Source: Dehalococcoidia bacterium (lineage in GTDB: Bacteria; Chloroflexota; Dehalococcoidia; JAUSIH01). From it: 52,055 nt of DNA. Position 1 is the stretch's first letter, and each line of letters opens with the position of its first letter. The stretch is from contig JAUSIH010000093.1 of NCBI GenBank assembly GCA_030648205.1, positions 1 through 52,055 of the forward strand. Reading direction: 5' to 3'. The notes beneath the pieces were generated by a model. It did not search any database, was not told the origin of the DNA, and saw only the letters and a list, made by a program, of their open reading frames with translations. The position numbers were made by a program, and so were the translations under genes. Of the stretch, positions 5,996 through 31,524 are shown piece after piece.

Positions 5996-7048
5996 CTACT
6001 TCTTCCCGCGTATGGGCCGCGACACGAAGTACGAGTCGCCGAACGTGGGCACGAACACGGAGTGCAGGCCCGAGTCGCCGCCCGCGACGATGATCTGGAA
6101 CTGCTCCGGCCTGTTCGCCAGCGGCGTGAAGCCGTCTTTCGCCCTGCCGGTGCGGATGTAGTCGGCGTGGAAGTCCTTGGGCCAGTGCTCCAGCGGCACC
6201 CGGCTCGTCCGCTCCAGCAGCGCATTCTGCACGTCCCGCCTGGACATGCCCTCGCGGGCCAGCAGGGCGGCGTGGTCCGGGTTCAGCACGACCAGCATTT
6301 CGCCCAGGCCGAAGAACGGCCACATGTTGATGCTGCCGACCGCCTCCATGGAGTGCGAGAAGGTGCGCAGCAGGCCGTCCGCGTCCTTGCTCTGCGAGTT
6401 CGTCATATTCGTCGTGCCCGTCGCCGCCACCAGCGTCACCGTGCTCTCCTCCGCGCGGAAGCCGCGCTCCACGTGCCACGGCTGCCACGGGGAGCGCTCC
6501 TCCCACTCGCCGAAGCAGAACGTATAGCGCCCGGGCTGCCCCTGCGTGGACTTGCTCACGTCGCCCGGGACAGCTCCGCCCACGTTGAGCTGGATGAGGC
6601 GCACCGCCCGGCCGATGGTGGCGTTGGCGCGCCATCCCGGCCCCATGCACCCGTACGCGCAGTTGATGTCCAGCGCCTTCCGGATGGGGCCGTTCACGAC
6701 GGTGAGCAGGCAGACCGGGTTGGTGGTGGTCTGGATGCCCGCCAGCTCGAACTTCAGGTCGGTCATCGCCTCGACGACGGCGATGAGCACGGGCAGGTAC
6801 TCCGGCTTGCACCCGGCCATCACCGCGTTGACGGCAATGCGCTCCACCGTCGCGTCGCCGTTCCGCGGCGCCACGCGCGCCACCACGTGGTCCGGCTTCA
6901 TGTCCACCGCGGCGAGCATCGCGGCCAGCCGCGTCTCCGTCGGCGGGACGATGGGCAGACCGTCTGTCCAGCCCTGCTCGCAGGCGTGCTCGTAGGCCGC
7001 GTAGGCCCCCTCCAGGGAGTCGTCTATCTGCGTTCTGTCTTTTATCAT
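5996..7048 (-). CDS. Selenoprotein-associated partner protein (copy A), unknown function
   Basis: 350 residues, no signal peptide or membrane segment. I do not recognise a characterised family. It is clearly homologous to the protein at 21407-22498 and to the C-terminal two thirds of the fusion at 22563-24311. Shared motifs are W-[ST]-D-G-[LF]-P near residue 27, 'RIAVNAVMAGCKPEYLPVL' with an invariant Cys (residue 80), a [NS]-G-P segment, and 'GRAVRLIxxNxGG'. Its ATG overlaps the TGA stop of the upstream selenoprotein gene (ATGA at 7048-7045), indicating translational coupling. The invariant Cys next to a Sec-containing partner suggests thiol chemistry or mixed selenyl-sulfide formation. This is inference; the substrate is unknown. 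Confidence 0.85.
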   Translation of the reverse strand: MIKDRTQIDDSLEGAYAAYEHACEQGWTDGLPIVPPTETRLAAMLAAVDMKPDHVVARVAPRNGDATVERIAVNAVMAGCKPEYLPVLIAVVEAMTDLKFELAGIQTTTNPVCLLTVVNGPIRKALDINCAYGCMGPGWRANATIGRAVRLIQLNVGGAVPGDVSKSTQGQPGRYTFCFGEWEERSPWQPWHVERGFRAEESTVTLVAATGTTNMTNSQSKDADGLLRTFSHSMEAVGSINMWPFFGLGEMLVVLNPDHAALLAREGMSRRDVQNALLERTSRVPLEHWPKDFHADYIRTGRAKDGFTPLANRPEQFQIIVAGGDSGLHSVFVPTFGDSYFVSRPIRGKK

Positions 7049-17333: not shown

Positions 17334-19019
17334 TTAATCCACCCACTCCTTTAGCGCCCATTCCAGCAGAGCGTTTTCTCGGTCCTCAATTGCGCGTCGT
17401 CCCCAACGAGGGAGCCTACCCCCCACCTCTCGGGCGACCAAAAGGCCTGTTTTGGTGTATTCGTCGGCCTTCTCCCTCGGAGGCTTCGCGCCCAGCTTAG
17501 AGTTCAGCTTCGGTGGAAGTACCAGCAGGTTGCCAAGCCAATGGACCCAGTCCGCGCTCTCCGAACTTTGGGGAAGAATGTGCTCGATGGAATCGGCTGC
17601 GCTAGCCTCCCAGATACGGTTCCACTGTTCGTTGTCGAAGTTTTGCCCAGCTTTCCGAGCAAGATACTCTTCGTACCTGTAGAAGAAGTAGCGGAGTTCT
17701 TCCTGCCATCCTTCATAGCAGTTGGTTTTGCTCAGATGCTGGACGGCCTTAGCAATGGGGAACTCCGCACCAATGTCGGATAACTTCGCCAGGATCGTGG
17801 TAGCAGGCAGCTTTTCTCTAGTAATGCTCCACGCGAGCCGAACGTAGTTGCCCACAGCCCATCGAGCGTCCTTGTCAGACATTCCGTAGATGCGAAATGT
17901 GACGTTCTCCCAGCGGCGCAGGACTCGCTCCTTTTCAGCTTCGCTGAGGTCCCGGCGAAGATTCACTGCTGTGGCAGCCAATCTTGCCTGCGCGATTTGT
18001 GTAACGGCGTTTCTTCTCCGGTCGGCAGCCAGTTGGTTTACCGCCTCGGTCACTGCCTTTAGCCATGTCGTCGTTTCAATCACCTTCGCGGTGCCAGTCT
18101 TCGACTGATCGCGAAGCAGTTCTGCGGCCTCAGCCTCGCCTACCGGGCGGCTAGGAGGCCATCCTTTATCCAGCCGCAGGGTTGCAGCGAAGCGGAGCGC
18201 TTCGCTGCTCGAGCCCAACCGTAGCCCTACACACCTGTAGATATCCGCCCAAAGTTGATGAACCACCCCAATATTCTCGCTCTTGTTCCCTGTATCGGCC
18301 TCGAAGACGATAGCCATCAGCATGCTCTTGAGACGGTCGAACCACGAGACATCCAGGCCGCGGCTATTAAGGACCTCAAACACCGTATAGACCATCGCCT
18401 CGTCACCAATTTCATAGAAAACAAATGTTAGCCTGTTCTTGAGCAAGCCTACCAAATCCGTGAGGGAATCGCCCCTACCTTGCCAATCACCAACAAACTT
18501 CTCACAGTCCTCCATAGCTGTCAAAAGCTCCCGGTCTGCCAGAGTCTTAGCGGACCCTGAAGGTGGAGGGTTTCCTGTTCTTCTTCGAAGATAGTCGGCG
18601 AAGTAGTTACTGGTGTCGTGGTTCGTCTGAAGAAGCAACAGGGAGGCCTTATCCTGTTTGACCAGAGTCTCGTCGATCTCCCGACCAATTCTTTCCCCAA
18701 CGGGATCTGAACGGTCAAGGGCTTTGGCGATCGCTTTGAGAATCAGGATGAGGGTTGTAATCCGCTGTTGCCCGTCTACCACCTCTACGACCTGATGTTC
18801 AGTGGTAATGATAGTCCGTTTTTCCCGGCGAAGGCCCACGATCGTGGCCATGAAGTGATGTCGGTCATTCCCTGCGGCCCAGGTGCGATCGATATCCTCA
18901 AACAGGTCTTTCCGCTCTTTCGACCGCCAGCTATAGGCTCGCTGATACTGAGGAATCCTGAAAAGTCGCCCGTGAAGCAACCTGTCCAGAGTGACATGCT
19001 GTGGCTGGATGTCGATCAT
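17334..19019 (-). CDS. GmrSD-like DUF262/DUF1524 restriction protein
   Basis: 561 residues. The N-terminal DUF262 domain has 'FRIPQYQRAYSW' (about residues 21-31) and the NTP-binding motif 'VVDGQQRITTL' (about 76-86). The C-terminal DUF1524 nuclease-like domain has 'SIEHILPQS' (about 480) and a later 'LGNLLVLPPKLNSKLG'. Proteins with this order are type IV modification-dependent restriction enzymes (GmrSD/BrxU type) that cut DNA with modified bases, or related phage-defence proteins. ATG 19019 has GGGAG seven bases upstream. It is a lone gene, lower in GC than its surroundings, with no adjacent modification gene, consistent with a transferred defence gene. Cleavage specificity is unknown. Confidence 0.9.
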   Translation of the reverse strand: MIDIQPQHVTLDRLLHGRLFRIPQYQRAYSWRSKERKDLFEDIDRTWAAGNDRHHFMATIVGLRREKRTIITTEHQVVEVVDGQQRITTLILILKAIAKALDRSDPVGERIGREIDETLVKQDKASLLLLQTNHDTSNYFADYLRRRTGNPPPSGSAKTLADRELLTAMEDCEKFVGDWQGRGDSLTDLVGLLKNRLTFVFYEIGDEAMVYTVFEVLNSRGLDVSWFDRLKSMLMAIVFEADTGNKSENIGVVHQLWADIYRCVGLRLGSSSEALRFAATLRLDKGWPPSRPVGEAEAAELLRDQSKTGTAKVIETTTWLKAVTEAVNQLAADRRRNAVTQIAQARLAATAVNLRRDLSEAEKERVLRRWENVTFRIYGMSDKDARWAVGNYVRLAWSITREKLPATTILAKLSDIGAEFPIAKAVQHLSKTNCYEGWQEELRYFFYRYEEYLARKAGQNFDNEQWNRIWEASAADSIEHILPQSSESADWVHWLGNLLVLPPKLNSKLGAKPPREKADEYTKTGLLVAREVGGRLPRWGRRAIEDRENALLEWALKEWVD

Positions 19020-19191
19020 GGTTGCACTCCCTCGACCTGTGGCAACTTGGGATCTGATTTGCCGGAGGCGTCCTTTGGACAAATAAGCTGCGGCGGTTCG
19101 AATTTGCCTGATGGGCCTCCCCGGCATCGCACCGGCAGGCATGGCCCTACGTCGTCACTATACCCCGCGCCCGCGGCGTGTCAAGCGCACC

Positions 19192-20819: not shown

Positions 20820-21374
20820 ATGACAGACTACGTCCTGAATCCGGTCGGTGAACCAGCTCAGTCCGTCAAGCGCGCGAACCTGGCCCCGCGTCCAGGCAGC
20901 CTCGAAGGCAAGCGCATCGGTATTCTCGACGATCGGGTTACTCGCAGCATTGGCAACGTCACGGAAGTTCTCGGGCCTCTGGTAGAACAGAGATTCGCCC
21001 CCGGAGAAGTCAGGATATGGCTTAAACCAAACACCGGCGCGCCTTCCCCTCGGGCCCTGCTGGAAGACGTCATGCGCAACTCGGACGTCGTCATCCTCGC
21101 CTGCTGCGCCTGAGGGTCCTGTACGTCGGGCCTTGTGCACGACGCGGCGTTCCTGGAGAAGCAGGGAATTCCTACCGTGACTATCGCGGAAGACGCCTTC
21201 ATCACAGCCGCTCGCAAAGGCGCGACATTCCTTGGCGTACCTGATCTGCCCTTCGTGGTCATTGCACAGTCGCGGTCATGGGAAACAGCCGAAGGCACAA
21301 AGAAGAAGGTCTCCGACGCCCTTGAGGAAGCAAAGCAGAAGCTGTTGTCCACGGCTCGCCCCGTGCCAGCGTAG
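20820..21374 (+). CDS. UGSC-type selenoprotein (in-frame TGA = Sec)
   Basis: 184 residues when the TGA at 21111-21113 is read as Sec (residue 98), giving C-C-A-U-G-S-C with Cys 101. The Sec and following Cys form a UxxC redox pair. Two more cysteines stand directly before it (95-96). The downstream half ('AAFLEKQGIPTVTIAEDAF', 'FLGVPDLPFVVIA') is in the same frame and aligns with the proteins at 7045 and 22563. A hairpin sits at 21124-21144. ATG 20820 follows AGAGAGG. It is the first gene of a plus-strand operon; the partner gene starts 32 bases after its TAG stop. The UGSC family is known as a selenoprotein family. Its reaction is, as far as I know, uncharacterised. Confidence 0.88.
21124..21144 (+). 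promoter_or_regulatory. Putative bacterial SECIS hairpin 2
   Basis: CGTCG (nt 11-15 after TGA) pairs with CGACG (nt 27-31) around GGCCTTGTGCA, in which G starts the loop. Same position as the hairpins at 7288 and 22898. Confidence 0.6.
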
Positions 21375-21406: not shown

Positions 21407-22498
21407 ATGACCAACCTCAGCTTGAAGTCTGAGCGCATTCCCATCCGGGACTACTTCGAATGGCAGGAGATGGCGTTTGACAAGGGCTGGTCCGACGGCT
21501 TTCCCGTCGCGCCGCCCCTGGAGAGTAAGGTAGCTGAGGTTGTGGAGTACCTGGGCCGGGAACCTGGAGAGCTTATAGGCGTGATACCTCCCGCTCACCG
21601 GCTCGCCACCATCGAAAAAATCGCGATCAACAGCGTGATGGGTGGGTGCAAACCTGAATACGTGCCCGTCATCATCGCCGCGGTCCAGGCAATGCTGGAG
21701 GAGCGCTTCAATCTGAACGGCGTGCAGGTGACCGCTCATAGCGCCCGTCCGCTTGTCATTGTAAGCGGACCGCTCGTCAAGCAGCTCGGTTTCAATGCGA
21801 AAATAGGGGTCTTCGCTGGCGGCTCCCGGGCCAACACCACCGTGGGACGGGCCGTGCGCCTCATTCTGTGGAACATTGGCGGCGCGTACACGGGCGACCC
21901 GGACCGCGCCAGCTTTGGGCATCCGGGACGATTCAGCTTTTGCATAGCGGAAGACCAGGATATTAATCCCTGGGAACCGTTGCACGTGGAGCGGGGCCTT
22001 GCTCCGGAAGACAGCGCCGTGACGGTCATAGCCGCGGAATCACCTCGGTGGATAAAGTACGGGCTTCGCATTCCTGGCAAGGAGAACCTCGAGAACATCG
22101 CGGACGCCATGTCCAACCTTGGGAACAACGCTGTCTACATCGGTGGCTATTTTCTGGTCGTCATCGGCGCCGGAGTCGTCCCTACCCTTGCCAGGGAGGG
22201 CTGGACAAAGCAGACGGTCAGGCAGTTCCTGTACGAGAAAGCTCGCCAGCCGCTTGGCCGCATTCGTCGCCACGCGGACTGGGCTTATGAAGACCGCTTC
22301 AAGAGCCGCCAACACTGGCATCCCGTGTGGGTGGACATGTCCGACGACAATTGCATGATTCCCTGCGTGGGCAAGCCTGACGACATTACGGTGATGACGG
22401 CGGGCGGGACCCACGGCAACGTGCTGTGCCCTGGCTGGCATGCCGGCGGCGGATGGCCTGTGACACGCCGGATTGAACTTCCGCGGCGGACGGCATAA
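21407..22498 (+). CDS. Selenoprotein-associated partner protein (copy B), unknown function
   Basis: 363 residues, paralog of 5996-7048 and of the C-terminal part of 22563-24311. It keeps 'GWSDGFPVAPP' near residue 28, 'KIAINSVMGGCKPEYVPVI' with the invariant Cys (residue 81), 'VSGPLVKQLG', and 'GRAVRLILWNIGGAY'. The segment 'PWEPLHVERGL' is also shared with copy A ('PWQPWHVERGF') and the fusion ('DWEPFSADRGF'). It is soluble by sequence. It follows the selenoprotein gene, as copy A does in the other locus, and precedes the fused gene. Function is unknown; conserved pairing with a Sec protein suggests the two act together, which the natural fusion supports. Confidence 0.86.
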   Translation: MTNLSLKSERIPIRDYFEWQEMAFDKGWSDGFPVAPPLESKVAEVVEYLGREPGELIGVIPPAHRLATIEKIAINSVMGGCKPEYVPVIIAAVQAMLEERFNLNGVQVTAHSARPLVIVSGPLVKQLGFNAKIGVFAGGSRANTTVGRAVRLILWNIGGAYTGDPDRASFGHPGRFSFCIAEDQDINPWEPLHVERGLAPEDSAVTVIAAESPRWIKYGLRIPGKENLENIADAMSNLGNNAVYIGGYFLVVIGAGVVPTLAREGWTKQTVRQFLYEKARQPLGRIRRHADWAYEDRFKSRQHWHPVWVDMSDDNCMIPCVGKPDDITVMTAGGTHGNVLCPGWHAGGGWPVTRRIELPRRTA

Positions 22499-22562: not shown

Positions 22563-24311
22563 ATGAGTCAAGCTTCTTCAGAGCCGAAGTACGCCGTCGT
22601 ATGGCCCCTGGGTCGACAAGAGCACAAGCCGCTCCGGGTACGAGGGCCCATTGCCGATTTGCGCGGAAAGACGGTGGGCCAGCTATGGGACAGACTCTTC
22701 AGAGGCAACGAGATTTTTGCGATCATTCGAGAAAAACTGCAAGAGAGATATCCTGATATCAAGTTCGTCAGCTACGATGTCTTTGGCAATATTCAGGGCC
22801 CGGACGAGCCGGAAGTCATTGCCGCGTTGCCTGAGCTGCTGCGCAAACACGGGTGTGATGTCGTCATATCGGGCATTGGCGCCTGAGGTGTCTGCACGCC
22901 CGCGGTCATACGGGCCAGCCTGGTAGCCGAAACGGCAGGTGTCCGCAGCGTTTCGATCGTGTCCAGCGGCTTCGCGAAGCTGGCGCACAGGTCGGCGGAC
23001 ATATTCGGTGTGCCCAACTTGCCGATCGCGGAATATCCTGGCGTCATCATGGTTGACGGCGCTGCTGATTTGCACCGCAAGGCGGAGATGCTGGTCGCCC
23101 AGATCGTCGAGGGACTGGCGACTCCGCTGCGGACCGTGGTGAAGTCTTCCGAGCCGAAAACAACAGACATCGTGTGCGAAGGCACGCTCGACGAGGTCCA
23201 GGAGTTCTTCACGAAAAAGCTGTGGACGGACGGGCTTCCCATTCGGCCGCCGACTATAACAAAAGTCGAAGAGTTCCTGCAGTGCACCGATCGGCATCGA
23301 GACGAAGTCATCGGTGTGATTGGACTTGAGAACCGTGAAGCCACCATATGGAATATCGCAGTCAACGGCGTCATGGCGGGATGCCGTCCTGAGTACATGC
23401 CGATCCTCATAGCAGTGGTAGAAGCCATCGCGGACGCGGACTTTCGTGTCCACGAGTCCGGAGGCACGCCCGGATGGGAGCCGCTCATCGTGCTGAACGG
23501 ACCAATTGTCAAGGAGTTGGACTTCAACTATGATTGCGGCGTGATGCGGGTGGGAAGGCAGGCGAACTCAAGCATCGGGCGGTTCCTCAAGCTCTACATG
23601 AGAAATGTCGCGGGGCTGCTCACTCCGCCGGAGTCAACGGACAAGGGGACGATAGGATACACGTTCAACGTCGTCCTGCCGGAGAACGAGGATGTCATAA
23701 TGGCTCTCGATTGGGAACCCTTCAGCGCGGACAGGGGTTTTCCGCGAGGAGAGAACGTTGTGACCGTCCAGAGCGCCAGAGCGATCACCCCGCCTATTTA
23801 TTGCGGCGGGAACACGGCTAAAGAGGCGATGGAAGCCCTGGTTGAGATTTTCGGCACGACGTGCTCCTACACGGCCTACCTTGGACTGCGCCACAGGAAC
23901 TATCACCCGCTGCTGCTCATCAGCCCCAGCATTGCGCAGGTGCTGGCCAAGGATGGGTGGAGCAAGAACGATGTCAGGGCTTATCTGTACGAGCACTGCC
24001 GGATGTCCGTCAGGGACTTGGAGAAATGGGCTTGGAGGACGGGACACACGGACTTCAGTGTCTCCGGGCTTGTTGCGGCAGGCAAAATACCGAAGAGCTA
24101 CGGTGAGTCGGAAGATCCGGAGAGACTGGTCCCCGTGTTTTTCCGCGCTGATTCAATAGGTATCGTTGTGGCGGGCGACCCGGGAAGAAACCAGGCCAAA
24201 GGCTATGTGCACAATCACCGGCCGCCAGTCAGCAGGAAGGTCAACCTGCCGGCGAATTGGTCGAGCCTCGTAAGAGCATCACAGGCTGGCACAACGACGG
24301 GCTTGCGGTAA
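22563..24311 (+). CDS. Fusion of UGSC-type selenoprotein and partner protein (UGVC motif)
   Basis: 582 residues if the TGA at 22884-22886 is Sec (residue 108). The motif reads G-A-U-G-V-C, so Ser of UGSC is Val here. Residues 1-~195 match the selenoproteins at 7045 and 20820. Residues ~205-582 match the partner family ('LWTDGLPIRPP', 'NIAVNGVMAGCRPEYMPIL', 'GRFLKLYMRNVAG'). The frame stays open for 475 codons after the TGA, and no ribosome site with a start lies just after it. A hairpin with GGTC in its loop follows the TGA (22898-22915). ATG 22563 follows GGGAGGATAGGG. The gene sits between partner copy B and a binding lipoprotein gene 24 bases downstream. Routine annotation would give a 107-residue fragment and a separate ~450-residue protein. 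Confidence 0.87.
22898..22915 (+). promoter_or_regulatory. Putative bacterial SECIS hairpin 3
   Basis: GCCCG (nt 12-16 after TGA) pairs with CGGGC (nt 25-29) around CGGTCATA. The loop contains GGTC, as in the E. coli fdhF SECIS apical loop. The stem sequence differs from hairpins 1 and 2 at paired positions while pairing is kept. Confidence 0.65.
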
Positions 24312-24335: not shown

Positions 24336-26114
24336 ATGGGTAATCGGATATCTCAGAGCGTAGTTGGTCGGCCGCTTGTTCGGCTGGGCAGTCTCCTGGT
24401 GGCTGGAGTCCTTGTCCTGTCCGCCTGCGCTCCCAGCGCCGCGCCGGCGCCTCAGCCCGCGTCATCAGCGCAGCAGTCCGCGACTCCAGCGCCGCCCCCC
24501 GCGACTCCGACCTTGGCTCCCCCAACGCCCAGGCCGTCCGCGCCGGCAACGCCATCTCCAGCCTCAGCACCGGCCGCCGCGCGGACTCCGTCCGGGGCGA
24601 CTGAACAGCCGAAATACGGGGGAGTGCTCGCGGTCCGAAACCCTGACCCCGTATCCACATTTGACATGCATCAGGCGACCCGCATTGACGTCTCAATCCC
24701 CTTCAGTAACGTTTACATCGGTCTCCTTCGGAAGGACCCTGTTGATGGTGAAACAGTCATCCCCTCCATGGCAAAAGCATGGACGATCAGCCCCGATGGG
24801 ACTGAATACATACTCACGTTGCAGCCCGGCATCAAGTGGCACGACGGACAGGCGTTGACGACAGAGGCAGTGGCGTGGAGCCTGAACCGGATGGCGCGCC
24901 CGCCGAGGGGGGTCATCAGCCCGAGGGCGAGCGGCCTCCTCGTCGGGATGGTGCAGGCCGAAGCTCTGGACGCTGCGCGCGTTCGTATCACCCTGGACGC
25001 CCCGAGCGGCTCCTTCCTCGACAGGCTGGCGAACGACTGGATCACCGTCTTGCCCAAACACATCCTGGACAAAAAACAGGGTGACGCGCTGGATGTCGTT
25101 GTAGGCACCGGAGCATTCAAATTTGTGCGGTACAACGCCAACGTCAGCGTCGAGCTGACGAAGAACAAGGAGTACTTTGTACCAGCGCGGCCTTACCTGG
25201 ATGGCATCACCTTCTTCATCATCCCGGAAGACCGCACAGCGTTTGCCGCCCTGCGGACAGGGCGGGTGCAGCTCACCACCGTTGCGTCCCGCGCCATCAG
25301 CGCCACTGAAGCCGAGCTCGTCGAAAGCGATCCGGACCTGAGTAAGAAGATCCTGGTGGAGCGCTATGCGTCTCCCTCCAAGAACGGCTTCATGCCCAAC
25401 AATGAAATCGCACCCTGGAAGGATGTCCGCGTCCGGCGTGCGGCGAGCCTGGCGATGGACCGTCAGGCCGCGGTGACAATAGCCAAGGACGCAGTCATCG
25501 GAGGCTATTTGAGCCCCCGCACCAAGTGGGGCATACCTGTTGAAGAGCTTGTCAAGCGGCCCGGATTCCGGCAGCCGAAGGACCAGGACATCGCGGAGGC
25601 CAAGCGGCTGATGGCTGACGCCGGCTATGCGAATGGAATCGATATCCCCCTCCTCTGCCGCCTGGGTTTCGACTGCGAGCAAATGGCTCCCCTGCTGGGG
25701 TCTGATCTTGCCAGGATCGGCATTCGAGCGAAAATCGTTCCAACGGCGACCAATGTCCTTACAGAGATATTCAACAAGGGTCAGTACAGCGCTGCCCTTT
25801 ACTCCGCGACCGCGCCGCTGGCCGACCCGGACAGCCTCCTGACGTCGTATCTGACCGGCGATGGGCGCAACTGGAGCCGGTTCGGCGACGCGCAGGTTGA
25901 CGCATGGTTCAAGGAGCAAAGCCGCACGCTTGACCAGAGCAAGCGTCTTGAGATCGTACGCAAGATTGAGGAACGGCTGCTGGAACTGGAGCCACTGCCG
26001 AGCCTGTACTTCCGTGACTACCTCCGCGCGCGCTGGAGGACTGTGAAGGGCTTTAGAAGCGGCCCTGACCTTTTCCAGGACGAGAATCTGGAGTATGCGT
26101 GGCTGGACAAATAG
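24336..26114 (+). CDS. ABC transporter substrate-binding lipoprotein, family 5
   Basis: 592 residues. It has a lipoprotein signal with lipobox L-S-A-C (about residue 31), then a long Pro/Ala/Ser/Thr linker, then the family-5 domain ('TFDMHQATRIDVSIPFSN', 'IPSMAKAWTISPDG', 'LTLQPGIKWHDGQ'). ATG 24336 follows GAGGAGGGG. It is 24 bases downstream of the fused selenoprotein gene and is followed by two permease genes, so it is part of the same operon. Family-5 proteins bind peptides, nickel complexes, opines or other organic solutes. The neighbouring Sec proteins suggest the imported compound is processed by thiol/selenol chemistry, but this is inference. It is a paralog of the partial gene at 1-1658. 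Confidence 0.94.
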   Translation: MGNRISQSVVGRPLVRLGSLLVAGVLVLSACAPSAAPAPQPASSAQQSATPAPPPATPTLAPPTPRPSAPATPSPASAPAAARTPSGATEQPKYGGVLAVRNPDPVSTFDMHQATRIDVSIPFSNVYIGLLRKDPVDGETVIPSMAKAWTISPDGTEYILTLQPGIKWHDGQALTTEAVAWSLNRMARPPRGVISPRASGLLVGMVQAEALDAARVRITLDAPSGSFLDRLANDWITVLPKHILDKKQGDALDVVVGTGAFKFVRYNANVSVELTKNKEYFVPARPYLDGITFFIIPEDRTAFAALRTGRVQLTTVASRAISATEAELVESDPDLSKKILVERYASPSKNGFMPNNEIAPWKDVRVRRAASLAMDRQAAVTIAKDAVIGGYLSPRTKWGIPVEELVKRPGFRQPKDQDIAEAKRLMADAGYANGIDIPLLCRLGFDCEQMAPLLGSDLARIGIRAKIVPTATNVLTEIFNKGQYSAALYSATAPLADPDSLLTSYLTGDGRNWSRFGDAQVDAWFKEQSRTLDQSKRLEIVRKIEERLLELEPLPSLYFRDYLRARWRTVKGFRSGPDLFQDENLEYAWLDK

Positions 26115-26206: not shown

Positions 26207-27172
26207 ATGTTTGCCTATGTGATTCGCAGACTGATCCTGTTTATCCCTGTTCTGCTGGGCGTATCCTTGATCATCTTCCTTGTGATGCGCATAGTCCCCG
26301 GAGACGCGGCCTACGCGACGCTGGCCGGACGCGGAGGTGAGGGAATTGTCACAGAGGAAGCCCTTGCCACAATGCGGCAGCGCCTCGGGCTAAACAAGCC
26401 TTATCCGCAGCAATATCTCGACTGGGTCTGGGGGATGGCCCGGCTCGACTTTGGCACGTCGCTGACCACACGCGTACCCGTGTGGAAGGAGGTGACGCAG
26501 CGGTTGCCTATCACCATTGAGTTGGCGGTCCTTACAGCGCTCATTGCCACCGCGGTCGCGGTGCCCGTGGGCACATTTTCAGCGTTGCATCAAGATACGC
26601 CGCTTGATTACATACTCCGAATCGTCACAATCATCGGCCTGGCCGCACCCACGTTCTGGATAGGGACACTTACAATCATGGCGTTGGTACGCTACTTTGA
26701 CTGGATCCCGCCGCTGGGATTCTCCAGCGTGCTGGACGATCCCTGGACAAACTTCCAGCAAATCATCTGGCCCGCCGTCGGCCTGGGTTACCACCACGTC
26801 GCGGTTATCGCACGGATGACGCGCTCCTCCATGTTGGAGGTGTTGCGGCAAGAGTACGTGCGCACGGCGTGGGCCAAGGGCCTGCGCCAGCGGGTGGTGA
26901 TCAACCGTCACGCGCTGAAGAATGCCATGATGCCGGTCGTCACGCTCATTGGTGTGCAGTTTGCCGTGCTTCTGGGTGGTACGGTCATCATGGAAAGCAT
27001 CTTCTCCATTCCGGGCATGGGCAGGGCTCTCATAGAGGGGATTCAGCTTCGCGACTACACGGTGGTCCAGGGTTGTGTCGTCATCTTTGCGCTTCTCATT
27101 CTCATTGTGAACCTTCTGGTAGACCTGTTGTATGCGTGGCTTGATCCGAGGATCGGCTATGGAGCCTCCTGA
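26207..27172 (+). CDS. ABC transporter permease (DppB/OppB type)
   Basis: 321 residues with six predicted membrane helices. The N-terminus 'MFAYVIRRLILFIPVLLGVS' is typical of DppB-type permeases, and the coupling-helix motif 'EYVRTAWAKGLRQR' (EAA loop) contacts the ATPase. ATG 26207 follows GAGGGACGGCG. It lies 92 bases after the binding-protein gene with no terminator seen between. It should pair with the 27205 permease to form the membrane channel. No ATPase genes follow, so the energising subunits must be shared or encoded elsewhere. Confidence 0.95.
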   Translation: MFAYVIRRLILFIPVLLGVSLIIFLVMRIVPGDAAYATLAGRGGEGIVTEEALATMRQRLGLNKPYPQQYLDWVWGMARLDFGTSLTTRVPVWKEVTQRLPITIELAVLTALIATAVAVPVGTFSALHQDTPLDYILRIVTIIGLAAPTFWIGTLTIMALVRYFDWIPPLGFSSVLDDPWTNFQQIIWPAVGLGYHHVAVIARMTRSSMLEVLRQEYVRTAWAKGLRQRVVINRHALKNAMMPVVTLIGVQFAVLLGGTVIMESIFSIPGMGRALIEGIQLRDYTVVQGCVVIFALLILIVNLLVDLLYAWLDPRIGYGAS

Positions 27173-27204: not shown

Positions 27205-28104
27205 GTGCAATCTGAGCAAATGTCTCTGTTGAGAAAGTCCTCACCACCCGTCCTGCTCATTCGATGGGTTCGCGTTATCCTGCGCTTCGCTCAAGCTAAA
27301 CCGATGGCGGCGGTTGGCGCACTGATTATAGTTGCCGCGCTCGGGGCTGCGATTTTCGCGCCCATCATTGCCTTGAGTGACCCGCTCAAAGTGGACACCA
27401 GCCGTATCCTGGTCCCGCCGGGCCGGGCTGCTCCACTGGGGACTGACTTCCTAGGAAGAGATGTGCTGAGCCGCATTATTTATGGCGCTCGGATATCGCT
27501 GTACGTGGCGGTTTCATCAATAACGGTTTCCCTGATAGCTGGAGCACTGCTGGGAGGCGTCGGAGCATACTTTGGCTCCAGGATTGACATGCCGATCCAG
27601 CGGGTCATGGATGCGATGATGGCTTTCCCGAGCCTGGTCCTTGCCCTGGCGCTTATGGCATCCCTGGGACCAAATCTGAACAATGTCGTTGCCGCAATAG
27701 CAATCGTTTACACGCCGAGAACGGCGAGAATCATACGTTCAGCAGTGTTGGCTGTCAAAGCTAACCAGTACACCGAGGCGGCGCGCGCGGTGGGTTGCTC
27801 GCATGTCCGGATTTTATGGCGGCATATCGCCCCCAACTGCGTTGCCCCGGTCATCGTCATCGCAACCGTGAACCTGGGCGTCGCCATCTCGATAGAAGGG
27901 TCTCTCAGCTTTATCGGTGTCGGCGTTCCACCTCCAACGCCATCCTGGGGTAATATGGTCGCCGGCGCCGCCATCGAGATGGCCCAGAAAGCTCCGTACC
28001 TGCCGCTGTTCCCGGGGATCGCCCTGACTCTGACAGTCCTCGGCTTTAACCTCCTTGGCGACGCGCTGCGGGACATGCTGGACCCTCGCCTGCGGACGCG
28101 GTAA
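27205..28104 (+). CDS. ABC transporter permease (DppC/OppC type)
   Basis: 299 residues with an N-terminal helix of the OppC_N type and a periplasmic segment leading to 'PLGTDFLGRDVLSRIIYG', a strong DppC signature. The EAA coupling loop reads 'QYTEAARAVGCSHVRI'. The end 'FNLLGDALRDMLDPRLRTR' is typical. I used GTG 27205 (AGG eight bases upstream); ATG 27220 is possible and would drop five residues. It is the last gene of the operon that starts at 20820. The opposite-strand proA follows, so transcription should stop in the gap at 28105-28336. Confidence 0.95.
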   Translation: MQSEQMSLLRKSSPPVLLIRWVRVILRFAQAKPMAAVGALIIVAALGAAIFAPIIALSDPLKVDTSRILVPPGRAAPLGTDFLGRDVLSRIIYGARISLYVAVSSITVSLIAGALLGGVGAYFGSRIDMPIQRVMDAMMAFPSLVLALALMASLGPNLNNVVAAIAIVYTPRTARIIRSAVLAVKANQYTEAARAVGCSHVRILWRHIAPNCVAPVIVIATVNLGVAISIEGSLSFIGVGVPPPTPSWGNMVAGAAIEMAQKAPYLPLFPGIALTLTVLGFNLLGDALRDMLDPRLRTR

Positions 28105-28336
28105 GGAGCGCACGAGCGACTACGGAGGGAGACTCATTCTGTCTGAGTGGATTACCTGCGCTCTTGCGGCGGGTAGGCCTTTGCAGCCGGTGCAAAGGGG
28201 CGCCATAATCGCGGCCCCATAATCCGCTTCCTCCGCGGACCAGCCGGGCAACTCCATCGCCCGCCCCGTTCGCGCTGTCACGCCGAGTCCTGTGGAGAAG
28301 GACGAGGAATCTCCCTCGCGACCGAGCGGCAGGGTG
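28105..28336. other. Gap with repeat fragments and a doubtful short ORF
   Basis: A degenerate repeat (CACGCCGAGTCCTGTGG ... GAGGAATCTCCC) occupies about 28280-28320. On the minus strand a 45-codon frame (28257-28120) contains a CxxC ('CTGCKG'), but it has no good ribosome site or recognisable homology; I do not call it a gene. Confidence 0.4.
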
Positions 28337-29617
28337 TTACGGGCGCACCTGCCCGTTCCCGTAAATGACCCATTTGTAGCTGGTCAGCTCGCGCAGGCCC
28401 ATCGGCCCGCGGGCGTGCATCTTCTGCGTGCTGATGCCCACCTCCGCGCCGAGGCCGAACTGCCCGCCGTCCGTGAATCGCGTGCTGGCGTTCACGTACA
28501 CGCAGGCGGCGTCCACGTCGTCCAGGAAGCGCATCGCCGCCGAGTAGTCCTCGGTGATGATGGCCTCCGAATGGCCGGAGCCGTACTTTTCGATGTGCTG
28601 AAGCGCCTCCTCCTCGCTGTCCACCACCTTAATGGCGGCCACCAGGCTCAGGAACTCCTTGCCCCAGTCCTGCTCGGTGGCGGGGACAGCCCGCAGGCCC
28701 TTGTCGCCCGCCAGCAGCGCCAGCGCGCGGCCGTCGCAGCGCAGCTCCACGCCCGCCTTCGCCATCTCCTTCGCGATGAGCGGCAGCCCCTTCGCGGCGG
28801 CGTCCTTGTGGATGAGGACGCAGTCGAGCGCGTTGCAGACGGTGGGTCGCTGCACCTTGGCGTTGAAGACGATGCGCACGGCCTTCTCCAGGTCCGCGCT
28901 CTTGTCCACGTACGCGTGGCAGACGCCGACGCCGCCGGTGATGACGGGGATGGCGGCGTGCTCCGCCACGTAGCGGATGAGTCCGTCGCCGCCGCGCGGG
29001 ATGAGCAGGTCAATGACACCCTTCATCTGGAGCATCCTGTCCACCAGCGCGCGGTCGGTGCTCTCGATGAACTGGACGGCGTCGGCGGGCGCGCCCGCCT
29101 GGGCGATGGCGTCGCGCACGACGCGGGCCAGCGCGGCGTTCGAGTGGATGGCCTCCTTGCCGCCGCGCAAAATGCAGGCGTTGCCGGACTTGAGGCAGAG
29201 GACGGAGATGTCCACGGTCACGTTGGGGCGGCTCTCGTACACGGTGGCGATGACCCCCAGGGGCACGCGCCGCTTGCCGATGACCAGGCCGTTGGGCAAC
29301 GTGCGCATGTCCGCGACCTCGCCGATGGGGTCGGGCAGCGCGGCGACGCCGCGCACGTCCGCGGCCATGCCCGCGAGCCGCTTCGGGTCGAGCAGCAGCC
29401 TGTCCAGCAGGGCGTCGGTCAGCCCGTCCTTCCGGCCCTGGGCGCAGTCCTTCTGATTGGCGGCGAGGATTTCCTCCTCGCGCGACTTCAGGGCGTCCGC
29501 TATTGTGAGCAGCGCCCTGTTCTTAACGTCGGTGGAGAGCCGGGCGAGCTGCCGGGCGGCCTGCCGGGCGCGCTTGCCTTTGGTCTCCAGCTCCTGCTGT
29601 GCGCTTGCGAGGGTCAT
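28337..29617 (-). CDS. proA: Gamma-glutamyl phosphate reductase
   Basis: 426 residues. ProA reduces gamma-glutamyl phosphate to glutamate semialdehyde with NADPH, the second step of proline synthesis, in the cytoplasm. The aldehyde dehydrogenase-like catalytic Cys lies in 'QRPTVCNALDCVL' (about residue 261). Other signatures are 'VPLGVIATVYESRPNVT', 'GNACILRGGKEA' and 'DGGQFGLGAEVGIST' near the C-terminus. It is separated from proB (32056-33234, same strand) by a hypothetical gene and a DNA methyltransferase fusion, although proB and proA are normally adjacent. The interruption is probably due to insertion. Confidence 0.97.
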   Translation of the reverse strand: MTLASAQQELETKGKRARQAARQLARLSTDVKNRALLTIADALKSREEEILAANQKDCAQGRKDGLTDALLDRLLLDPKRLAGMAADVRGVAALPDPIGEVADMRTLPNGLVIGKRRVPLGVIATVYESRPNVTVDISVLCLKSGNACILRGGKEAIHSNAALARVVRDAIAQAGAPADAVQFIESTDRALVDRMLQMKGVIDLLIPRGGDGLIRYVAEHAAIPVITGGVGVCHAYVDKSADLEKAVRIVFNAKVQRPTVCNALDCVLIHKDAAAKGLPLIAKEMAKAGVELRCDGRALALLAGDKGLRAVPATEQDWGKEFLSLVAAIKVVDSEEEALQHIEKYGSGHSEAIITEDYSAAMRFLDDVDAACVYVNASTRFTDGGQFGLGAEVGISTQKMHARGPMGLRELTSYKWVIYGNGQVRP

Positions 29618-29658
29618 GGTGTCCTCCCCTGGGGGTAGGCGTGATCATCTCCGAAAGG

Positions 29659-29868
29659 CTAGTGTCCCGTTTTTGAAATACGTTCCCTATTCCATGTCAT
29701 ACCGGCTTCCGCCGGTATCCAGAGAAGCACCGGGGAACGCTGGATTCCGGCCTCGTATCGGGTACGGGGCAAGCTTTTCGCCGGAAAGACGGTAAGTGTC
29801 CGGGGGCGTTTCCTCGAACAACTTCTCATGCATGAAACAGTATGCGTACTCCGGGAACACCACACTAG
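29659..29868. repeat. Family A miniature inverted-repeat element (copy 2)
   Basis: The left end is CTAGTGTCCCGTTTTTGAAA. The right end, read inverted, is CTAGTGTGGTGTTCCCGGAG. Inner hairpins include ACCGGCTTCCGCCGGT. The right end contains the TAG stop of the methyltransferase gene. Confidence 0.75.
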
Positions 29869-31502
29869 GACATCAGCTCCCCTTGTTCCGCCTGCTCCTG
29901 CTCCGTGGGCGCCTTCGCGAAAGGTGACTTTTGCGCGCCAGGCGATTTGGCCTGCGGCGTCTGTGGCCGCTTCCCCGCCAGTATTTCCTCGATGGTCAAT
30001 ATCTGAACGCGCGGGTAATTCTTCTTCCAGAAATCATTATGATAGATCCCCGCAGCGGCAGCCTCTGTAATCATTGGCTGAGTCGGGGGTTCCAACGTCA
30101 GAAGAACGCCAACAGGCTCTTTTTCCCGATCCAGCACGCCTACAAGGTCACGCACCATGCCCACGTTGACCTTCTCGCCGCCCTTGACCGAGACAATGAC
30201 CCGTTTGTAGTCCTCTTTCGATCCGGCGAAGAAGGGAATGACACCGTCAATACCTTTGTCCGCCCCTTTCTTCTTGCCCGCAACGGGCTGCGCGCCCAGC
30301 CTGTCCAGCGCCCACCACTGGAACTGGTACTTGTCCCGTTTAGCTAGCTCTTGCGCGCCAGCCAGATCAACAGGTTCACCAATGACCTCAATAGCGATGC
30401 TTGGGAAAGCGTCCTGCATGCGGCGGCGCACGAGGCCGATAGCCAGATGCGTGACGTCTATGCCAATCCAACGGCGGTCCAGTTTGTGCGCGGCGTGGAC
30501 GGCGGTACCGCACCCGCAGAACGGGTCGAGGACAACGTCACTTGGGTTGGATGAGGCTGCGATAATTCGCTCAAGGAGCGCTAATGGCTTCTGGGTGGCG
30601 TAGCCCAAGCGCTCTTTTGGACGGTTGTGCACCGGCAGCAAATCGAACCATAGGTCCTGTGCCGATGCACCTGAAGACTCGTCAAGATATATCTTGTACC
30701 GCGGCACACCGGTCTTGCTATAGACGATTCGTCCTTCTCGCTCTAGGCGCTCCATATTCTCCTTTGAGAACGCCCAGTAACGCCCAGCAGGGGGTTTCTT
30801 GCCTTTCCACTCATATAAAGTGTCGCCACCCGGTTTAGCTGCATGCAGAGGCTGTGTCTGATAACGACGCCCGCCTGCATCCACGTAACGATAGATATTG
30901 TCAACATATTCGGGCTCATATGGCGTGTAGATGGTTTTCCAGGTTCGCTCGTCGCCCTTACTGTAGAATAGAATTGTGTCGTGAATGCGCCCAAAATGCT
31001 TCGCACCTTGCACAACATCACTATGTGCAGAGGAGCGTTTCCATACGATCTCATTAACAAAGTTCCTCGGCTCGAACACTGAGTCCATTAGAACACGCAA
31101 GTAGGGCCCTGCCGTGGGGTCACAGTGAAGGTAGATGGAGCCGTTATCCTTTAGCACGCGGTGCAACTCCACCAGCCGCACGGCCATCATGGTAAGGTAG
31201 GCAGTCACATCGTTGTGTCCTAGCCCCTCTACCATCGCCTTCAACATCCGCGCCACTTGCTGATGCGGGCCGGTCACAATTTCCTCGTAGATTTGGGCCG
31301 TCTTTGGCGCCCACTGCCACGTATCCTCAAACGCCTCTAGCTGGGCCTCGCTGGCCGCTCCGGTGGACTCGCGGAAGAGGACGTTATACGAGCGGCTGGA
31401 GTTGAAGGGCGGATCAAGATAGATGAGGTCAACGGAAGCATCGGGAATATGGCGGCGCAGAACGTCCAGATTGTCGCCGTAGTACAGGACGTTTGTTTTC
31501 AT
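29865..31502 (-). CDS. DNA methyltransferase fused to a Mrr-like nuclease domain
   Basis: 545 residues. The order of motifs, catalytic 'YLDPPFN' first (residues ~28-34) and the SAM-binding 'DPFCGCGTAVHAAHK' later (~325), marks a beta-class amino-methyltransferase (N6-adenine or N4-cytosine). After ~residue 400 comes 'KKGADKGIDG', 'VIVSVKGGEKV' and 'MVRDLVGVLDREK', which resembles a PD-(D/E)XK fold of the Mrr kind. The protein could thus modify and cut DNA. ATG 31502 follows GGGGAGAGG; an upstream ATG at 31520 is less likely. It is lower in GC than proA/proB and is flanked by family A elements at 29659-29868 and 31525-31667. A homologous C-terminal part is at 51558-52055. Confidence 0.88.
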   Translation of the reverse strand: MKTNVLYYGDNLDVLRRHIPDASVDLIYLDPPFNSSRSYNVLFRESTGAASEAQLEAFEDTWQWAPKTAQIYEEIVTGPHQQVARMLKAMVEGLGHNDVTAYLTMMAVRLVELHRVLKDNGSIYLHCDPTAGPYLRVLMDSVFEPRNFVNEIVWKRSSAHSDVVQGAKHFGRIHDTILFYSKGDERTWKTIYTPYEPEYVDNIYRYVDAGGRRYQTQPLHAAKPGGDTLYEWKGKKPPAGRYWAFSKENMERLEREGRIVYSKTGVPRYKIYLDESSGASAQDLWFDLLPVHNRPKERLGYATQKPLALLERIIAASSNPSDVVLDPFCGCGTAVHAAHKLDRRWIGIDVTHLAIGLVRRRMQDAFPSIAIEVIGEPVDLAGAQELAKRDKYQFQWWALDRLGAQPVAGKKKGADKGIDGVIPFFAGSKEDYKRVIVSVKGGEKVNVGMVRDLVGVLDREKEPVGVLLTLEPPTQPMITEAAAAGIYHNDFWKKNYPRVQILTIEEILAGKRPQTPQAKSPGAQKSPFAKAPTEQEQAEQGELMS

Positions 31503-31524
31503 CGCGCCTCTCCCCGCCATAGCT

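Follow-up and report, generated by a model that had tools for sequence, protein, structure and literature searches.

Does the TGA at codon 108 of a gene in a Dehalococcoidia draft genome end translation or encode selenocysteine (Sec), and what could the protein do that results from reading through it? The gene lies in a window of 52,055 nucleotides, which is the whole stretch of DNA that was analysed, and joins a UGSC-type selenoprotein domain to a partner domain, here called P. The features that bear on this question are the following:

5996..7048, minus strand: P partner of the second stand-alone UGSC, 350 aa
7045..7671, minus strand: second stand-alone UGSC selenoprotein, predicted Sec TGA at 7320-7318
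20820..21374, plus strand: stand-alone UGSC selenoprotein, predicted Sec TGA at 21111-21113
21407..22498, plus strand: stand-alone P, 363 aa, adjoining the preceding UGSC gene, with 64 nt between it and the fusion
22563..24311, plus strand: fused UGSC-P selenoprotein gene, 582 aa, Sec predicted at residue 108
22596..23117, plus strand: UGSC (PF24696) domain, residues 12-185
22884..22886, plus strand: in-frame TGA, read as Sec108 of U-G-V-C
22898..22915, plus strand: bSECIS-like hairpin GCCCG-(CGGTCATA)-CGGGC, 5 bp
23187..24242, plus strand: P domain, about residues 209-560, no sequence match in Pfam, NCBIfam or PDB
23382..23384, plus strand: codon of Cys274, the invariant Cys of the P family (motif VMAGC)
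24336..26114, plus strand: SBP_bac_5 solute-binding lipoprotein of an ABC importer, 24 nt downstream of the fusion
26207..27172, plus strand: ABC permease (BPD_transp_1)
27205..28104, plus strand: ABC permease (BPD_transp_1)

Reading of the in-frame TGA

The frame of the fusion gene starts with ATG and comprises 107 codons, the TGA, 474 sense codons and a TAA. The first-pass annotation had this layout right, except that its 475 codons behind the TGA included the stop. It had also likened the N-terminus to the two stand-alone selenoproteins of the window and the remainder to their partner proteins, and both likenesses were recovered: the N-terminus is 29% (E 2e-11) and 33% (E 8e-11) identical to the two other UGSC proteins, and the C-terminal ∼390 residues share 30% (E 3e-51) and 34% (E 1e-44) identity with the two stand-alone P proteins. 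Profile PF24696 matches the N-terminus with E 5e-27 (95.5 bits at a cut-off of 25, profile positions 2-170 of 172), and the NCBIfam model NF041046 reaches 57.4 bits, below its cut-off of 125. Since the latter score is far under the cut-off, the UGSC domain of the fusion is a divergent member of its family. Members of this family mostly contain Sec and share the U-G-x-C motif with the fusion, which differs from them in its divergence, in being joined to P and in the signature UG[S/A..]CTPAV-RAS of an all-fused clade.

The source genome (2.69 Mb, 120 contigs, 95% complete, draft assembly) contains selA, selB, a selD gene that itself carries an in-frame TGA, and a tRNA-Sec with anticodon TCA that was confirmed by ARAGORN. 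Among 88 aligned fusions residue 108 is encoded by TGA in 78 and is Cys in 4 (Chelativorans alearense, Nocardioides sediminis, Novosphingobium flavum and a Lachnospiraceae MAG), the remainder being degenerate or gapped. Within the source genome, TGA occupies the identical motif position in 41 of 41 Sec-UGSC genes. According to the first-pass annotation, the selenoprotein would have been refuted by a genome lacking selA, selB, selC and selD, or by the absence of homologues with Cys or Sec at residue 108, and neither is the case. As far as sequence can tell, the TGA of the fusion encodes selenocysteine. That it is a true stop, leaving a fragment of 107 aa and a separate protein of 450 aa that begins at the GTG at 22959, or that a sequencing error broke the frame, is already refuted on these grounds and can practically be dismissed: although a TGA normally ends translation, the genome is available only as a draft and the hairpin of the window is unremarkable, homology is continuous across the TGA, the aligned fusions carry TGA or Cys at this codon in the numbers given above, and the Sec machinery is complete. 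A standard gene caller would nevertheless yield just these two pieces, the 107-aa stub and the GTG-started ORF, as the first-pass annotation had anticipated. On plasmids, Sec-UGSC genes were seen to be misannotated, being split at the TGA into two short hypotheticals or a stub, namely in Paracoccus (L187:5387-5956, with a selB gene nearby) and on an Acidovorax IncP plasmid (L180 near 7058). In the source genome, one Sec-UGSC gene lies directly beside selA (G000:C1:28985-31084).

The motif U-G-V-C does differ from UGSC, as had been pointed out, but this is a trivial variant. Of the 78 Sec fusions, 56 have S directly behind U-G, 10 have A and 8 have G, and L, N, T and V are each found in a single one; with V occurring only once at so variable a position, we do not regard UGVC as a special motif. 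Taken alone, the bSECIS-like hairpin of the window is no stronger than those of shuffled sequences. Over the 41 genes of the genome, however, such hairpins average -6.4 compared to -3.7 for shuffles, and at 98 other motif sites they are also much stronger than shuffles on average.

Relatives of the UGSC domain and of P

In the AlphaFold model of the fusion, which is confident (pLDDT 94.6, pTM 0.93), the UGSC domain has an alternating alpha/beta fold, with Sec108 in the loop that connects the strand of residues 100-106 to the helix of residues 111-124. A thioredoxin-like fold and a redox role had been guessed for UGSC proteins (Zhang and Gladyshev 2008, PMC2398784). Such a fold is not supported and was rejected: profile comparison with TrxA revealed no similarity (4 aligned columns, probability 0.8%), and no thioredoxin fold was among the matches listed in a fold search of the fusion against the PDB. 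Profile comparison instead shows a distant homology between UGSC and the Sec domain of GrdB/PrdB from glycine and proline reductase, a placement that is new and stands against the guess of 2008. Aligned with hhalign to three GrdB sequences, all from a single genome (Geosporobacter), UGSC scored 57.6 with a probability of 94.5% over 96 columns and with Sec on Sec, whereas the best of 220 unrelated proteins scored 22.9. Column-shuffled GrdB gave at most 22.3 versus 52.1 for the unshuffled profile, in a comparison that contained one of the three GrdB rows in a wrong frame. Reciprocally, the top 12 matches of a GrdB profile among the ORFs of these loci all came from UGSC loci (best E 1.7e-5). The GrdB/PrdB family profile PF07355 had no match anywhere in the source genome, and the fold search matched no GrdB structure.

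The two families are alike in the homologous Sec domain and in a Cys at +3 of Sec, while the third motif Cys of GrdB/PrdB (UxxCxxC) is usually absent from UGSC. They differ also in their partners, since GrdB and PrdB work with the pyruvoyl proteins GrdE and PrdA, and UGSC has the unrelated P and no pyruvoyl subunit. Homology of P to GrdE/PrdA was rejected at a profile probability of at most 0.18%, and the pyruvoyl part of the glycine and proline reductase mechanism is therefore without a counterpart here. Thioredoxin is the electron donor of glycine reductase; for UGSC-P a role as donor is only inferred from operons.

For P itself, searches by sequence against Pfam, NCBIfam and the PDB returned nothing credible. 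The model of the stand-alone P at 21407..22498 is confident (pLDDT 92.1). A fold search of the fusion against the PDB and viral models gave no match with E < 0.001; with P alone, the best match was class I fumarase at E 9.6e-5 but a TM of only 0.22, and neither this nor the weaker barbiturase/cyanuric acid hydrolase matches were accepted. Residues D223, G224, P226, P230, C274 (within VMAGC), G313-P314, N335, R340, E374 and G538 are kept across Chloroflexi, Arthrobacter, haloarchaea, Vibrio and Sporomusa, with Cys274 as the one invariant Cys of the family.

Pairing, fusion history and copy number

The claim that the two proteins act together, made before from the fusion alone, gains strong support from the source genome, where 34 of 36 stand-alone UGSC genes have a P gene in the same orientation at a distance of up to 600 nt (after the UGSC gene in 23 cases, before it in 9 and on both sides in 2). 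The P-domain tree requires at least five changes between the fused and the split state, two of them forced by well-supported branches, and groups the fusion of the window with exclusively fused proteins from many phyla, in a clade of 30-31 rows that has strong support. Because of this pairing and this tree we consider it very probable that UGSC and P act together, and we infer an old origin of the fused form. Searched with the fusions, GTDB genomes yielded 80 fusion loci, which come from Chloroflexi, Alpha-, Beta- and Gammaproteobacteria, Acidobacteria, Actinobacteria, Clostridia, Nitrospinota and Rokubacteria. In five loci (L108, L122, L130, L132 and L133) a second, stand-alone P gene lies directly downstream of the fusion, a hint that part of the fused clade could form a hetero-oligomer with two P subunits.

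Fusions of this type have been reported before. A fusion of UGSC with a domain named Unknown_1 is shown in Fig. S1A of Zhang and Gladyshev (2008, PMC2398784), and domains fused to UGSC-type proteins have a conserved Cys as a rule, as stated in the same source. Very probably this is the architecture of UGSC-P, though identity of Unknown_1 with P is unproven, and in the available part of that account neither genomic context nor copy-number expansion is given. The protein of the window is thus a genuine selenoprotein that adds a member to a fusion type described earlier; new are the GrdB placement of the family, its link to thioredoxin genes and how far it has expanded.

The expansion is considerable. 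The source genome carries 41 Sec-UGSC genes with one Sec TGA each, and a 5.0 Mb genome of the same class (JACPQD, NC_groundwater_644 Chloroflexi MAG, contamination 7%) carries at least 146 (e.g. in L159-L178). The latter number is a lower bound, as 150 matches resulted from the 150 scored of 208 candidates, and 146 of these have the TGA. All of the 73 UGSC domains checked in 334 kb of JACPQD contain U, and 51 of them are fused to P. Co-assembly of strains was rejected as the source of these numbers, since the nearest paralogue is at most 62% identical in the source genome and none of the checked JACPQD domains is more than 90% identical to another. In a sample of the class, most genomes with the family hold 1-8 copies (at most 11 candidates per genome scored). 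The largest prokaryotic selenoproteomes that we found in print comprise 57 and 63 genes, the latter in a MAG (PMC13188914), and are exceeded by the UGSC genes of JACPQD alone. With standard gene calling, a large number of genes of these bacteria would be overlooked.

Proposed function and competing explanations

In aquatic metagenomes, UGSC proteins rank with the most abundant selenoproteins (PMC2398784), and neither the available part of that paper nor the reviews, as far as available, give a function for them. In other organisms, UGSC-P genes share operons with trxB or trxA and with carboxylate importers, a genomic context that we report here as new. Ten of 80 fusion loci encode TrxB-like flavoproteins with a CAxC motif (Pyr_redox_2 is among the neighbour families). 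Further neighbours in other genomes are TctC (25/108), CoA-transferase III, MmgE/PrpD, 2HCT, CitMHS/MatC, HpcH/HpaI and CaiB. An Arthrobacter plasmid carries an operon trxB-trxA-P-UGSC in which trxA and P overlap by 4 nt, a Roseovarius plasmid carries P-UGSC-trxB with TRAP and CaiB, and a Variovorax gene cluster reads trxB-TctC-SDR-P-UGSC. Haloarchaea combine a CoA-transferase, a CoA-ester lyase, P-UGSC-P and TAXI-TRAP. The members at these annotated loci are Cys forms, so the association is independent of Sec. In the Arthrobacter case a phosphosulfolactate synthase gene (L179:3722-4510) lies upstream of the operon, and sulfonates or phosphoenolpyruvate derivatives are a possible reading of this as a clue to the substrate.

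Since relatives adjoin thioredoxin genes and organic-acid importers, UGSC-P is probably a thioredoxin-powered organic-acid reductase. More precisely, we propose a GrdB-like Sec reductase that acts on imported organic acids and in which P serves as the substrate domain, and give this reading a probability of about 0.5. Electrons would pass from NADPH via thioredoxin reductase and thioredoxin to the Se–S bond of U-G-V-C, and the selenolate formed by its reduction would then attack a substrate held by P, in an active site putatively lined by Cys274, D223-G-x-P, N335, R340 and E374. The substrates would be carboxylic acids, here taken up through the ABC importer whose genes directly follow the fusion, and the reaction would be a reductive cleavage or reduction of the GrdB type, with the exact substrate unidentified. 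Many diverged UGSC-P paralogues may then correspond to many substrate specificities. The electron path, the chemistry between Sec and substrate, the role of Cys274 and the substrate class are inferred without any experiment, the last from the TctC, 2HCT, CitMHS/MatC, TRAP, CaiB and HpcH/HpaI neighbours. The UGSC genes of the source genome lie most often near genes for SBP_bac_5, ABC permeases, MFS and CoA-transferase III, and trxB is not among the 25 commonest neighbour families listed, so that a thioredoxin system would act in trans.

Our confidence in the reductase is only moderate, mainly because some fusions lack the Sec or Cys of the motif. Three fusions of the source genome and those of Sporomusa and Vibrio (L043:614-2269, L056:3734-5356, L057:3772-5520, L183:6323-8047 and L186:5434-7119) are without it and keep P and its Cys, and P may therefore also act without redox chemistry. 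It is conceivable, albeit unlikely, that P catalyses a mainly non-redox reaction, as a hydroxy-acid lyase, hydratase or isomerase, and that UGSC only activates or protects the Cys of P by redox switching. The retention of all P residues in the motif-less fusions would fit such an enzyme, as would the aconitase X/DUF126 genes next to those of Sporomusa and Vibrio, whereas the weak resemblance of P to class I fumarase is not a credible match and lends little weight. Moreover, Sec would be costly if merely regulatory, and it is kept in 78 of the 88 aligned fusions. We likewise doubt that UGSC-P is a general thiol-disulfide or peroxide-detoxifying protein of the thioredoxin-fold type in which P has a regulatory or docking role. 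The UxxC motif and the redox role guessed in 2008 point in this direction and trxA/trxB neighbours would suit a peroxidase equally, but the domain is strongly similar to GrdB and not to TrxA, and dozens of diverged paralogues beside substrate-binding proteins, CoA-transferases and lyases argue for substrate specificity and against a housekeeping redox role.

Among thioredoxin-driven Sec reductases, UGSC-P might even form a class of its own, the third after glycine reductase and proline reductase and so far unrecognised. P would then be a new substrate-binding fold, and some Chloroflexota, among them the genome with at least 146 Sec proteins of this family, would use UGSC-P as a large toolbox for the catabolism of dissolved organic acids; we put this forward tentatively, with somewhat less than even confidence. 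With its relation to GrdB, its thioredoxin operons and its neighbouring carboxylate importers, the 'unknown' UGSC becomes a testable enzyme class.

Within the window, the permease genes behind the fusion are followed by a 448-aa ORF without Pfam match (28292-29638, plus strand), which a 426-aa ORF on the minus strand overlaps. The region is flanked on the minus strand by genes for a GmrSD-type restriction endonuclease and an N6/N4 DNA methylase-restriction-like fusion (17334-19142 and 29865-31520, respectively).
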